NCBI RefSeq assembly: GCF_900105125.1
Contig: NZ_LT629750.1
Coordinates: forward strand, 1,984,001 to 2,048,000
Reading direction: 5' to 3'
Source: Bradyrhizobium canariense
Lineage (GTDB): Bacteria; Pseudomonadota; Alphaproteobacteria; Rhizobiales; Xanthobacteraceae
DNA length: 64,000 nt
Below, piece by piece: positions 6,398 through 10,716 of the stretch. The notes beneath the pieces were generated by a model. It had not been told where the DNA came from and did not search any database. It worked only from the letters and a program-made list of their open reading frames with translations. How positions within the stretch are numbered: the stretch's first letter is position 1; each line of letters starts with the position of its first letter. The translations under genes were made by a program, and so were the position numbers.

Positions 6398-6945
6398 TTA
6401 ACCGCATCCACCCTGCGGGGCGCCGACCCAGAAACTGCCATTGACGATCAGGTCGATACGGCCGCGATATTTTGCCGGAATGAGTTCGTCGATGGCGGAA
6501 TTGACGGCGGCATATTCACCGCCAATTCCCATGCCGGTGAGCATCCGGAAAAACGCAAAGCTCCAAAACTCCAGGCGCAGGCACTCAAAAGGACGCCCGC
6601 GAGATAAACGATCAGGGTCGCATAAAACACCAACCGTCGTCCAAAACGGTCAGTCACCCAACCCGAAACCAGCGCGCCGGTAACAGCCCCGATGACGTAG
6701 AACGAAGCGATCGCCCCCAGATTTGCGCTCGACAGATGAAGCGTCAGGGGATTTTGCAGCGCCGGCCCGAGCGCACCGACAATGGTCACCTCGAGCCCGT
6801 CCAAGATCCAGGTCACGCCGAGGCCGACGACAATGAGAAGATGAAAGCGGCTCCAGGGCAGCCGGTCCAGCCGCGCGGGAACATCTGTTTTCACCGCCGC
6901 ATTGCTCGGCGAAGATATTTCGGCGGCAGACATTAAGACACGCAA
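6398..6945 (-). pseudogene. Truncated, frameshifted MFS transporter
   Basis: The first about 130 codons encode the start of a 12-helix major facilitator: a first helix with GLGVTWILDGLEVTIVGALG and the MFS loop motif GWVTDRFGRR. After GALR the frame shifts. The continuation FFRMLTGMGIGGEYAAVNSA is found in the next frame, consistent with loss of one base in a run of five A (plus strand, about 6549-6553). The restored frame reads ELIPAKYRGR and NGSFWVGA, then meets a stop at 6398 after about 180 residues. The remaining roughly 250-300 residues of an MFS protein are missing, so this is a remnant even if the frameshift were a sequencing error. Family: probably aromatic-acid or sugar type MFS; substrate unknown. 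Confidence 0.8.
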
Positions 6946-7038: not shown

Positions 7039-7377
7039 TTAGTCGCCTTGTCCCGGCTCGGCCGAGAAATACTGCTCGAGCTTGTTGGCAACCCCATCGA
7101 AAGCCTTGGCATCCGCAGGCGCCTCGCGCTTGCTGGTGATATTCGGCCAAACCTCGGCGTATTGCGCATTCAGCTTGATCCAGCTTTCAAGGCCCGGCTG
7201 CGTATCAGGAAGAATGGCCTCGGCAGGGCATTCCGGCTCGCATACGCCGCAATCGATGCATTCGTCCGGGTTGATGACGAGCATGTTGTCGCCTTCGTAG
7301 AAGCAATCGACCGGACACACTTCCACGCAGTCCATATATTTGCATTTGATGCAATTGTCGGTGACGACGAAAGTCAT
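7039..7377 (-). CDS. fdxA: Seven-iron ferredoxin FdxA
   Basis: A 112-residue soluble electron carrier with one [3Fe-4S] and one [4Fe-4S] cluster. The N-terminus ([20 protein letters not shown]) is nearly the same as Azotobacter vinelandii ferredoxin I. The two cysteine groups [17 protein letters not shown] and [12 protein letters not shown] are complete, and the C-terminal extension ([13 protein letters not shown]) is also present. I start at ATG 7377, whose ATGA overlaps the stop of the haemoglobin gene upstream, which implies translational coupling. A TTC at position 3 and the family N-terminus support this start over one seven codons earlier. The genetic linkage suggests it passes electrons to the truncated haemoglobin; that is inference. 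Confidence 0.95.
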
Positions 7378-7787
7378 CGCGCCTGCTCCGGCGGCCACGA
7401 ACGATCCGGCCGATAGAATAATGCGAGCTTCAAACTCTCGGCGATCCGGACGGCCTTGCCACGAAACGCCTCGCTGCTGCCGGCATCGAACAGTTCGTCG
7501 CAGGTTTCGTTGAAAAGTGCGAGCCAGCGTTCAAACAAGGATGGCTGCATATCCGGGATTGCCAGATGCTTGACCACCGGATTGCCCTTGTAGCGACCGG
7601 TCGTGAGCATCACCGACGACCAGAAGGCGTACATCTTGGTCAAATGCGGCTGCCAGTCACCGGGAATGGCCCGCAAAAAGATCGGCGCCAGTATAGGGTC
7701 GCGGCGAACCCTTTCGTAAAAGGAATCGACGAGCAGGCGAATGCTTTCCTCGGAAACATGATCAAGCTTTGCGGTCGAGGAGATCAT
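7374..7787 (-). CDS. Group III truncated haemoglobin
   Basis: A 137-residue globin of the truncated group III (P/Ctb-like) class. The segment [20 protein letters not shown] followed by [11 protein letters not shown] is the hallmark of the group, the last His being the likely proximal haem ligand. The C-terminal [15 protein letters not shown] and [12 protein letters not shown] also match. I use the internal ATG at 7787 ([14 protein letters not shown]), which overlaps the stop of a small upstream ORF as ATGA. The 44 extra upstream codons in this frame are out-of-frame reading of that ORF. Related globins act in resistance to nitric oxide or nitrosative stress. The gene is coupled to fdxA downstream and faces an NsrR-like regulator. 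Confidence 0.92.
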
Positions 7788-7954
7788 ATCGCGAGCACCA
7801 CCACGAAAACGCCAAGTATCGTCCAGAACAACGAGTTGATCAGCATGCGGACCAGATCCTGGTGTCTGGAAAGGCCGAAGATTCGGCACGCGAGAGTCCC
7901 GGGCAGCAAGAATGGCCACGCGACGGCATCGCCGATCGAAGCAGTCCTCCTCAT
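7784..7954 (-). CDS. 56-residue membrane protein, first gene of NO operon
   Basis: A short ORF not long enough for routine length cutoffs. It begins at ATG 7954 behind an excellent GGAGAG ribosome-binding site and ends at 7784 with TGA overlapping the haemoglobin ATG. The product starts MRRTASIGDAVAWPFLLPGT and has a C-terminal hydrophobic segment (about residues 38-56, [16 protein letters not shown]) that should span the membrane. It has a tandem-arginine basic N-terminus. Its position as first gene after the NsrR-like palindromes, with start/stop coupling to the globin, argues that it is real. Function unknown; it might anchor the globin at the membrane. Confidence 0.75.
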   Translation of the reverse strand: MRRTASIGDAVAWPFLLPGTLACRIFGLSRHQDLVRMLINSLFWTILGVFVVVLAI

Positions 7955-7964
7955 CGATCTCTCC

Positions 7965-8033
7965 TATAAGATATATACACCATACATCTTATAGGTCGAC
8001 GCTTGCCGTAAAGCAATATCCATTATACATCTT
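7965..8033. promoter_or_regulatory. Two NsrR-like operators in divergent promoter
   Basis: Site 1 spans 7968-7990: arms AAGATATAT and ATACATCTT around 5 bases, extendable to 12-bp arms (7965-7993, one mismatch). Its 23-bp length and AAGAT...ATCTT ends match the known NsrR operator plan. Site 2 at 8011-8033 has the same right arm ATACATCTT and a weaker left arm. Site 1 lies just upstream of the ribosome-binding site of the small membrane protein gene, and site 2 is 31 bp before the rrf2 gene. One regulator could therefore repress both directions. Confidence 0.65.
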
Positions 8034-8063
8034 TTACACCAAACGCTGCCCAGGGAGATACAC

Positions 8064-8516
8064 GTGCGCCTGACCGTCTACACCGATTATGCGTTGCGCG
8101 TGCTGATGTACCTCGCCTTGAAGAAAGACCAGCTGGCGACGATCGCGGAGATCGCCGAAAGCTACGACATTTCCAAGAACCATCTGATGAAGGTAGCCCA
8201 TCAATTGGGTGTTGCAGGCTATGTCGAAACCGTTCGCGGCAGAGGCGGCGGGCTGCGCCTTGCAAAACCGATCAAGGCCATCGGGCTTGGCGAAGTGGTG
8301 CGCCACACCGAGCCGGATATGGCGATCGTCTCCTGCTTCGAGCCTGTCAATGCATCGTGTGCCATTCAACCATGCTGCGTGCTGAAGCGCGCATTGAAGA
8401 AAGCAAGCGACGCTTTTGTCGAAGTGCTTGACGATTACACATTGGGCGATCTGGTCGAGCCGCGGAGCCGGCTTTCCGACCTGCTGGGTATCACCCACGG
8501 CAATGCGCTTTCGTAG
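8064..8516 (+). CDS. nsrR: Rrf2-family NO-sensing repressor, NsrR-like
   Basis: A 150-residue Rrf2-family transcription factor. The N-terminus MRLTVYTDYALRVLMYLA begins a winged helix-turn-helix that runs to about residue 70 (recognition region SKNHLMKVAHQL, wing RGRGGGLRLA). Cluster-ligand candidates are Cys91, Cys99 and Cys105 (also Cys104) and Asp8. This matches the NsrR arrangement of three Cys plus Asp8 binding [4Fe-4S], rather than IscR. NsrR proteins lose DNA binding when nitric oxide attacks the cluster. It is transcribed away from the membrane protein/haemoglobin/ferredoxin operon, with two NsrR-like palindromes between. Autorepression is likely. Confidence 0.88.
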   Translation: MRLTVYTDYALRVLMYLALKKDQLATIAEIAESYDISKNHLMKVAHQLGVAGYVETVRGRGGGLRLAKPIKAIGLGEVVRHTEPDMAIVSCFEPVNASCAIQPCCVLKRALKKASDAFVEVLDDYTLGDLVEPRSRLSDLLGITHGNALS

Positions 8517-8528
8517 CTCCGGCCAGGC

Positions 8529-8960
8529 CTATTTGCCTCGACTTACCTCCGAGAGCTGACGCTTCAACGCTCGCACTTCCTCGAAGCGCTTGGTGACGTC
8601 ACGAAGGATTGCGACCGTTCCGGTCGGGCGGCCCTGTTTGTCTTTCAGCATCGCGATCGTGAACTCGACCGAGACGCGCTGGCCGCTCTTGGTCAGCGCC
8701 GGCACCGACAAAAGATCGCCGTGGCCATAACGGCTTTCTCCGGTCTGCATGACGCGATTGTATCCGCTCCAGTGCCGGGCGCGAAGATTCTCGGGAATGA
8801 TGAGATCGAGCGAGCGTCCGATGGCTTCGTCAGCCGCGAAGCCGAAAATCCGTACCGCGCCGGGATTCCAGAAATCAATGATACCGGCGTGATCGGTGGC
8901 GATGACGGCATCCGATGCCGTCGTCAGGATCGCGTCAATGAGCCCGTCAGGAACGATCAT
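8529..8960 (-). CDS. Single PAS-domain sensory protein
   Basis: A 143-residue protein that is essentially one PAS domain (about residues 5-120; DAVIATDHAGIIDFWNPGA start, PAC-like end TGTVAILRDVTKRFEE) followed by a short helical tail. No output domain is present, so it must act through a partner or as a stand-alone sensor. The PAS core shows GRSLDLIIPENLRARHWSGY. It is convergent with the nsrR-like gene, ending 12 bp from it, and lies 81 bp downstream of the Rieske-flavoprotein gene on the same strand. The start at 8960 has AAGGAT upstream. Ligand (haem, flavin or none) cannot be decided. Confidence 0.85.
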   Translation of the reverse strand: MIVPDGLIDAILTTASDAVIATDHAGIIDFWNPGAVRIFGFAADEAIGRSLDLIIPENLRARHWSGYNRVMQTGESRYGHGDLLSVPALTKSGQRVSVEFTIAMLKDKQGRPTGTVAILRDVTKRFEEVRALKRQLSEVSRGK

Positions 8961-9041: not shown

Positions 9042-10562
9042 TCAGCGCATCGTCCCCTGCTCCATCGCAAGCTCAGCCTGAAGGCTTGCGAGGTCGCGAT
9101 AGATCGAGGCAACGGCGAGCACGCGGCCTCTGCTCTTGTAGCGCAGCAGGCAGTCCTTTGCCGCGATATCGCCGTCGATCACGATATCGTCCCATTGTTC
9201 GGCGTGACCGACATAGTTGATCGGCACGTCGTAGTGCTGGCTCCAGAAAAACGGCACCGCATCGAACGGCTCTCGCTGCCCCAGCATGTTGCGCGCGGCA
9301 GTCTGGCCCTGGCGCTCCGCCACCACCCAATGCTCGACCCGGATGTTCTCGCGGGAATGCGGATCGGGCCAGCGCGCGATATCGCCCGCGGCGAAGATTC
9401 CCGGAACGCTGGTTTCGAGGAATTCGTCCACCGCAACACCGCGATCGAGCTTAAGACCCGCCTGCTCGGCCAAGGCGAGGCGCGGGCGTACACCCACGCC
9501 GACAACGACCAGGTCTGCCTCCAGCGTGCCGCCGCTCTTGAGCGTGGCGCGCTTGCCGTCGATCGCGGCCACGGTATCCCCGAGGTGGAAGACGACGCCG
9601 TGCTCCTGATGCAGTCCGCGCAGGAAATCGCCCATTTGGGGCCCCAGCACCCGCTCCATCGGCCGCTGCTCGGGCGCAACGACGTGAACCTCGATATCAC
9701 GTGCACGCAACGCAGCCGCGGCTTCCAGGCCGATGAAACTCGCGCCGATCACGATCGCGCGCCGGGCGCCATTCGCAGAGTCGATGATGCCGTTGCAATC
9801 CGCCAGGGAACGCAGCGTATGGACGTGCGGTTGATCGGCACCTGGGATCGGTAGCCGCACCGGTTCGGCGCCGGTCGCCAGCAGCAGGCGATCATAGGAA
9901 ACGTCGCCGCCGGCGATCGTGACCTTCCGCGCCTTGACGTCGATCGCGGTGACATTGCTGTTGAGCCGAAGATCGATGCCGGCCTCCGTATAGAAGCTGT
10001 CCGGACGCAGCGGCAGCCAATCCTCCGGCGCGCTGCCGGCGAGATAGTCCTTCGACAGATTCGGCCGATCGACCGGCGCCGCGCCGTCGTTGCTCAGCAT
10101 GACGATATCGCCGCCGAACCTCTCGCGTCTCAGCATTTCCGCCGCGGCGAACCCCGCCGCACCGCCACCGATGATCACAATCCTGTCGGGTGCTGCAGTC
10201 GGCCCCTTCCCGCTTGGCTCCGGCTGCTCGCGTTTCCGCCTGACATGGATGCGCCCGCCTTCGTGCTCAACCTGCCAGACCGCGAGGGGCGTCAACGCGG
10301 GCGCACGTGTCGCCTCCCCGGTTCGCAGATCGAAGCAGGCATGATGCCAGGGACAGCGGACGGTATGTCCGACCACGAGCCCCTCCGCGAGCGGCCCGTG
10401 ATAATGACTGCACTGGGCGTCGATCGCGAAAATCTCGCCTTCCGAACGCACCAGCAGGACTTCCTGGTCTCCGACGTGGCCAAGCAAGGTCTCGCCCGTG
10501 AAATCACCTGCCGCAACGCCGTGGGAGAGATCCGGCCCGGCGGGCGTCTGTTCCTCAGCCAT
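9042..10562 (-). CDS. Rieske [2Fe-2S] domain fused to FAD/NAD(P) reductase
   Basis: A 506-residue cytoplasmic flavoprotein. Residues about 8-100 are a Rieske domain with ligands Cys51-His53 and Cys70-His73 (CSHYHGPL, CPWHHACF). Residues about 122-500 are a pyridine-nucleotide-disulfide-type reductase with two dinucleotide folds (IVIIGGGAAGFAAAEMLRRE and AIVIGASFIGLEAAAALR) and the FAD motif GIFAAGDIA. This architecture resembles AIFL/Nfrl proteins and reductase components of oxygenases. There is no oxygenase nearby. ATG 10562 is chosen because GGGAG precedes it; an upstream GTG two codons earlier is possible. The physiological acceptor is unknown. Confidence 0.9.
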   Translation of the reverse strand: MAEEQTPAGPDLSHGVAAGDFTGETLLGHVGDQEVLLVRSEGEIFAIDAQCSHYHGPLAEGLVVGHTVRCPWHHACFDLRTGEATRAPALTPLAVWQVEHEGGRIHVRRKREQPEPSGKGPTAAPDRIVIIGGGAAGFAAAEMLRRERFGGDIVMLSNDGAAPVDRPNLSKDYLAGSAPEDWLPLRPDSFYTEAGIDLRLNSNVTAIDVKARKVTIAGGDVSYDRLLLATGAEPVRLPIPGADQPHVHTLRSLADCNGIIDSANGARRAIVIGASFIGLEAAAALRARDIEVHVVAPEQRPMERVLGPQMGDFLRGLHQEHGVVFHLGDTVAAIDGKRATLKSGGTLEADLVVVGVGVRPRLALAEQAGLKLDRGVAVDEFLETSVPGIFAAGDIARWPDPHSRENIRVEHWVVAERQGQTAARNMLGQREPFDAVPFFWSQHYDVPINYVGHAEQWDDIVIDGDIAAKDCLLRYKSRGRVLAVASIYRDLASLQAELAMEQGTMR

Positions 10563-10716
10563 GTCCACTCCCTGCTTCGTTGCACCACGATCGAACGAAA
10601 ACTGTTCAAACCGTTAGATGATCCGCGGGCGCATTGGTTCCCGGATTTCACCCCGACCGTTGGAGCCAGTAAAGCTTGAATTCGGCAAATCTACCGATGT
10701 TCCATGGCCTCAACGA

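Follow-up and report, generated by a model that had tools for sequence, protein, structure and literature searches.

A gene for a group III truncated haemoglobin (trHb3) was found between genes for a small membrane-type protein of 56 residues (TM56) and a ferredoxin, FdxA, in the window, a stretch of 64,000 nucleotides from Bradyrhizobium canariense. What is new here is an FdxA lineage linked to trHb3; the exact order TM56-trHb3-FdxA is rare. The reading we favour, and hold as a whole to be slightly better than an even bet, is that of an operon derepressed by nitric oxide (NO), which would provide a globin that removes NO, a seven-iron ferredoxin dedicated to it and a small membrane protein.

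Gene arrangement and the probable NO-type control region

The features discussed are the following.

7784-7954, minus strand: TM56, 56 aa, C-terminal membrane-type helix (open reading frame)
7374-7787, minus strand: globin, group III truncated haemoglobin (trHb3), 137 aa; 2ig3 is the top match by sequence and fold
7039-7377, minus strand: FdxA, predicted seven-iron ferredoxin of the trHb3-linked clade (99/92), 112 aa; NCBIfam match, nine Cys
8064-8516, plus strand: Rrf2 regulator, NsrR-like, GTG start, 150 aa, Asp8 and Cys91/99/105; PF02082, 5n07, clade 99/97
7968-7990, no strand: operator 1, NsrR-type palindrome AAGATATATACACCATACATCTT; 1/18 mismatch, 13/14 against the published consensus
8011-8033, no strand: operator 2, AAGCAATATCCATTATACATCTT, with the variant half-site AAGCAATAT; 3/18 mismatches, conserved in related loci
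8003-8031, plus strand: putative regulator promoter, TTGCCG, 17 nt, TACATC; from stacked loci, TTG in 11/11
7988-8016, minus strand: putative TM56-globin-fdxA promoter, TTGCTT, 17 nt, TATAAG; from the sequence
8529-8960, minus strand: PAS protein, FixL-like, possible associate; top PDB matches FixL and DosP
9042-10568, minus strand: Rieske + FAD/NAD(P) reductase (PF00355, PF07992), possible electron source, association uncertain

The sequence-only reading had described TM56, trHb3 and FdxA as minus-strand genes joined by ATGA at both junctions and facing a regulator of the Rrf2 family that has Asp8 and three cysteines of the cluster type. The coordinates and sequence of the open reading frames bore out the first part (TM56 stop and globin start at 7784-7787, globin stop and FdxA start at 7374-7377), and residue alignment the second. 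Named close relatives of the locus proteins, as judged by protein matches, were from Bradyrhizobium. Since 80 proteins including the window's own matched TM56 at E <= 0.01 and the junctions recurred in other genomes, we regard the locus as more than a chance arrangement. Further along the minus strand (6448-6945) lies a piece of 165 aa of an aromatic-acid/H+ symporter-type MFS protein, whose match is confined to the first quarter of the family model and which is probably a remnant.

The regulator matched PF02082 with 132.6 bits and aligned best to ScNsrR (5n07; E 6.9e-20). With 141.1 bits it stayed below the NCBIfam cut-off of 182 bits and was thus not assigned to the NsrR family by this model; it likewise stayed below the RirA cut-off (144.4 versus 193 bits). 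For this reason the NsrR label was derived from residue 8, the tree and the operators. The protein carries Asp at position 8 and cysteines at positions 91, 99, 104 and 105, so that Asp8, Cys91, Cys99 and Cys105 would make up an NsrR-type ligand set. Among 52 regulators compared, Asp8 was present in 14 of the 14 regulators from related loci, while residue 8 of L009, whose start is misplaced, was not used. In the regulator tree, in which L116 and L211 form long branches, the window's regulator belonged to a supported clade of 15 rows (99/97) comprising the 14 related loci and L116. Neither RirA nor the regulators from the common Bradyrhizobium globin loci were part of it. One TGA was present inside the regulator match of G112.

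A regulator answering iron or cluster status like RirA would turn the locus into an iron or oxygen response. The window's regulator shares with RirA the Rrf2 family and the cysteines at 91, 99 and 105, which are the positions in the RirA proteins compared, and its RirA model score is slightly higher than that for NsrR. In contrast to its Asp8, the five regulators exceeding the RirA cut-off carried Asn (four) or Ser (one) at residue 8. According to the available part of one study, an Asn8-to-Asp exchange gave RirA NsrR-like spectra and abolished iron sensing (PMC10510648). Given Asp8, a clade apart from RirA and the NsrR-type operator, an iron response is highly improbable, and RirA identity was rejected on Asp8, the separate clade and the score below its cut-off.

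Two NsrR-type palindromes, offset by 43 bases from start to start, are located between the divergent genes. They were the only sites with at most 3/18 mismatches in the 7.84-Mb genome, and a control with the reversed pattern gave no site at this threshold in the same genome. Within operator 1, the stretch 7971-7989 agreed at 13 of 14 positions with the NsrR consensus gATGyAT-N5-ATrCATc, as stated in the part of the publication at hand (PMC1274295), and thus has the sequence of an NsrR-type operator. Sites with three mismatches occurred in 79 of the 98 genus genomes, often with the same unrelated sequence; because of this frequency we put weight on operator 1 with its single mismatch and on conservation. 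No other one-mismatch site was present among the genus-genome sites listed. For 12 of the 14 loci in the clade, no more than 4% of the control stretches reached the best intergenic score (exceptions: L005, 12%; L062, 33%), these stretches overlapping one another and being few in loci of 3.3 kb. The half-site AAGCAATAT, the left half of operator 2, was found exactly in 11 of the 14 clade loci, 43-62 nt ahead of the regulator start and in all 11 preceded by TTG-N4-A, and L053, L062 and L119 contained similar strings instead. Only 7 of 25 common Bradyrhizobium loci stood out against the published motif; the palindrome there is AATAGGTATTTGAAATACCTATT, with variants.

These stacked sequences suggest a regulator promoter composed of TTG, 17 nt and TA(T/C)ATC, within whose spacer operator 2 would start. 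The putative operon promoter (TTGCTT, 17 nt, TATAAG) would touch both operators. A sigma-70 scan reported neither of the two. Three more NsrR-type palindromes were noticed downstream of the operon in L005 (5969-6813), among them one at 6791 with 18/18 positions beside a DUF2249-like ORF, as judged by eye.

Some of the related globins have NO-linked neighbours. The hmp gene follows trHb3 in L008, L011, L017 and L102, and DUF1971 lies just downstream of trHb3 in L009, L044, L052 and L053, with hmpA next in the latter two. In the window's genome full-length Hmp was not found, the Hmp query giving reductase-domain matches and one separate globin-like match; we counted this in favour of the module. 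No NirK exceeded the cut-off there, which we counted against it. In G201, a second trHb3 (L260, G201:C56) is situated approximately 1 kb from nirK. The NO response postulated from the letters of the window is well supported by the operators, Asp8, the regulator clade and Hmp or DUF1971 beside some related globins. Regulation of the NO type thus appears very likely, where sensing of NO and repression by the regulator are deduced from sequence.

The globin and its linked ferredoxin

The globin barely exceeded the PF01152 cut-off (21.5 versus 21 bits). Its top PDB match by sequence was the Campylobacter jejuni group III trHb 2ig3 (E 1.6e-19), and 2ig3_B was also the top fold match of the model (TM-score 0.75 by query length; model pLDDT 76). 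Tyr24, His48, His74 and Trp88 aligned with the pocket of Ctb; we take them to be Tyr B10, His E7, His F8 and Trp G8. With a group III protein as the nearest known relative and the pocket residues present, the globin was classified as a group III truncated haemoglobin. All three of His48, His74 and Trp88 are missing at the aligned positions of the FdxA-linked globin of Mesorhizobium (L051), so that one or more of the linked globins may lack normal globin function. This result counts against one uniform role of the globins. The globin tree required six changes of the FdxA label, and the linked globins are therefore not one clade; the row of G040, covering 20% of the columns, was ignored in this tree, and L010 and L119 are long branches.

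FdxA reached 167.6 bits with the NCBIfam model FdxA_Protbact (cut-off 135), and its nine cysteines sit at the positions of Azotobacter vinelandii FdI. On this model score and these cysteines it was assigned to the seven-iron ferredoxins, its cluster content being a prediction. Several families have an FdxA gene adjoining trHb3, in most cases with an identical overlap of 4 nt, which was seen in eight loci including the window's (L001, L005, L021, L051, L055, L057, L066 and L119). The two genes are 43 nt apart in L087 and overlap by roughly 80 nt in L059. In L056 (G323:C25) FdxA starts alike, with its first 19 residues out of frame with the rest, and is either a decayed gene or a sequence error.

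Eleven of the 12 trHb3-linked FdxA proteins grouped together in a single clade (99/92) that excluded 17 unlinked ones, 11 of which were drawn from the same genomes as linked copies; the G170 protein was counted as linked by its coordinates. The linked FdxA of G219 fell outside, and forcing all 12 into one clade gave a p-AU of 0.239, a value at which such a clade is neither rejected nor demonstrated. The tree omits an 84-residue fragment of G044 and two G000 proteins (42-43%), and L087 meets a long branch. Each of 10 searched genomes with a linked copy contained at least two FdxA matches, each of six without it one. A chance linkage of FdxA was rejected in view of the recurrence in other loci and the single clade of linked FdxA proteins.

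The idea of a dedicated ferredoxin, raised from the window alone, gained strength from the clade of the linked copies. It can be reasonably inferred that FdxA donates electrons to the globin, and we consider this fairly likely. The main alternative is that FdxA does not serve the globin and is an NO-induced spare for the ordinary FdxA or an NO sink, the two genes sharing an operon because both products are needed under NO. Such a role would suit the second, ordinary FdxA encoded elsewhere in the window's genome, which is 75% identical, as well as the many NsrR-trHb3 loci that lack FdxA, and Mycobacterium tuberculosis ferredoxins fall under NO according to the part of the report available (PMC8811941). 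A general spare, however, needs neither a lineage that stays beside trHb3 in several families nor the same overlap, and in L231 the gene after a trHb3-DUF1971 fusion encodes a different ferredoxin; we therefore deem this alternative unlikely.

Distribution of the gene order and the small membrane protein

The expectation that the three-gene order would be conserved mostly failed, as the order occurred in 2 of 98 genus genomes and in one named Bradyrhizobium record. A trHb3 match was present in 91 of these 98 genomes, and a close globin together with a strong TM56 match in G000, G044 and G040 only, the last without FdxA. Among the best 29 genus loci after the window's own, FdxA was located downstream in one, a divergent Rrf2 regulator in 27 and TM56 upstream in two. 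Within the taxonomic order, a trHb3 match was present in 166 of 297 genomes, and 89 loci besides the window's (29 top returns and 60 from further down the list, some skipped) yielded FdxA downstream in seven, the divergent regulator in 31 and TM56 upstream in none. Named records added L005 (Bradyrhizobium LY.54, from 16 loci) and L051, a Mesorhizobium plasmid, which was one of four globin regions opened among 173 plasmid records with a match. Elsewhere in the class, outside the order, an ordinary FdxA directly downstream of the globin was found in 0 of 29 loci. L231 has an atypical ferredoxin directly downstream, and in L244 FdxA lies about 1 kb away on the other strand. By eye, trHb3 appeared to be fused to a DUF1971-like domain in L231 (1489-2184, 231 aa) and in L239 (1486-2148, 220 aa); in L231 the fusion is followed by the atypical FdxA-like ferredoxin.

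TM56 did not match any Pfam or NCBIfam family. Its relatives share the conserved motifs PFLLPG..C....G and VRMLINSLFWT, with invariant residues in both halves, and the model shows a helix from residue 20 to 55 that is confident only from about residue 33. TM56 precedes the globin in the window, L005, L021, L022, Phyllobacterium (L050) and Polymorphobacter of the Sphingomonadales (L053), and a weak relative lies directly downstream of the globin in four loci of one family (L096, L098, L128 and L134). In Phyllobacterium and G040 the TM56-globin pair occurs without FdxA. TM56 and FdxA are separable, because each of them occurs with trHb3 without the other. The common Bradyrhizobium locus (L023-L048) encodes a different small membrane-type protein that abuts or overlaps the trHb3 stop; it clusters across 26 loci, one of them a duplicate region, and has 44-45 residues in the four inspected. 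From TM56, its relatives and this protein we conclude that a tiny membrane protein beside trHb3 is a recurring theme. This recurrence is the one observation that points to anchoring of the globin by TM56, a role we propose tentatively and rate as somewhat short of probable.

Which reaction group III globins carry out is not settled, and a low-potential ferredoxin suits reductive chemistry. The globin could thus perform a different kind of gas or redox chemistry (delivery of O2, or delivery under low oxygen; reduction of NO or nitrite; reactions with peroxide or sulfide), and TM56 could be a leader or membrane-stress peptide instead of an anchor. The FixL-like PAS protein nearby, one histidine of which presumably corresponds to the haem position of FixL, would agree with this, as would the confident modelling of TM56 in its C-terminal helix only. 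Seven loci (L003, L004, L006, L022, L093, L108 and L205) contain relatives of the PAS protein in the vicinity of trHb3 or of a related regulator. Against such a function stand the loci that related globins share with hmp, the many invariant residues of TM56 and the weak TM56 relatives downstream of globins, so that we regard it as quite improbable.

Proposed function and relation to known systems

For the NO-derepressed operon we propose the following course of events. The Asp8-type Rrf2 repressor, which probably carries a [4Fe-4S] cluster, would bind both operators between the divergent genes and keep the TM56-globin-fdxA operon as well as the regulator gene itself silent. Damage of the cluster by NO would lift repression. 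The trHb3 would then remove NO, most probably by acting as an O2-using NO dioxygenase, and the co-translated FdxA would re-reduce the haem. Electrons for FdxA might in turn come from an NAD(P)H reductase whose gene lies elsewhere; a possible candidate is the Rieske flavoprotein (9042-10568), strong relatives of which were found only near L155 (the same place as L022) and L050. TM56 may hold the globin at the inner membrane. In keeping with the nature of these data, we suggest that the module works like an NO dioxygenase system, not that it is one.

The flavohaemoglobin Hmp is likewise an NsrR-controlled globin for NO removal that is supplied with reducing power; however, Hmp is one fused flavoprotein, whereas globin and ferredoxin are separate in the window and the operon lacks a flavin domain. 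The locus might accordingly be pictured as a split analogue of the flavohaemoglobin, with a membrane-held trHb3, a dedicated FdxA lineage inherited with trHb3 across families, a distinct Asp8 clade and a two-operator code (NsrR-type palindrome plus TTG-N4-AAAGCAATAT-N5-ATAYATSTT). This full picture is speculative and, in our estimation, has roughly one chance in three.

The nearest precedent is Legionella, where glbN and a ferredoxin-reductase gene (lpg2536) are described, in the available parts of two papers, as the sole NsrR target with a proposed role in NO oxidation (PMC1274295, PMC3820574). As here, a truncated globin and a redox-partner gene are under NsrR, but the Legionella globin is of the cyanoglobin type and its partner a ferredoxin reductase, and those parts name neither FdxA nor a small membrane protein, both of which the window has. 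Campylobacter Ctb (2ig3) is alike in its group III fold, pocket and NO-linked control, yet it is governed by NssR of another regulator family, and a linked FdxA is not mentioned in the portion of the review concerned (PMC3820574). The group III trHb bll6222 of Bradyrhizobium diazoefficiens is similarly tied to denitrification control, but it depends on NnrR instead of an Rrf2 regulator and is listed without operon partners in the part of the source at hand (PMC6710368). A survey of rhizobial globins calls the neighbours of trHb genes rather variable, and the word 'ferredoxin' did not occur in its searchable text (PMC4648194). We found no report of a trHb3-FdxA linkage in the open-access literature.

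In its available part, a survey of 2005 named one exception only for NsrR-type control in Alphaproteobacteria (PMC1274295). The locus would extend this type of control into the class and gives a precise operator. How small globins without a reductase domain are reduced is an open question, and the linked FdxA is one candidate donor. The ferredoxin lineage adjoining trHb3 differs from the ordinary FdxA that these cells also have.
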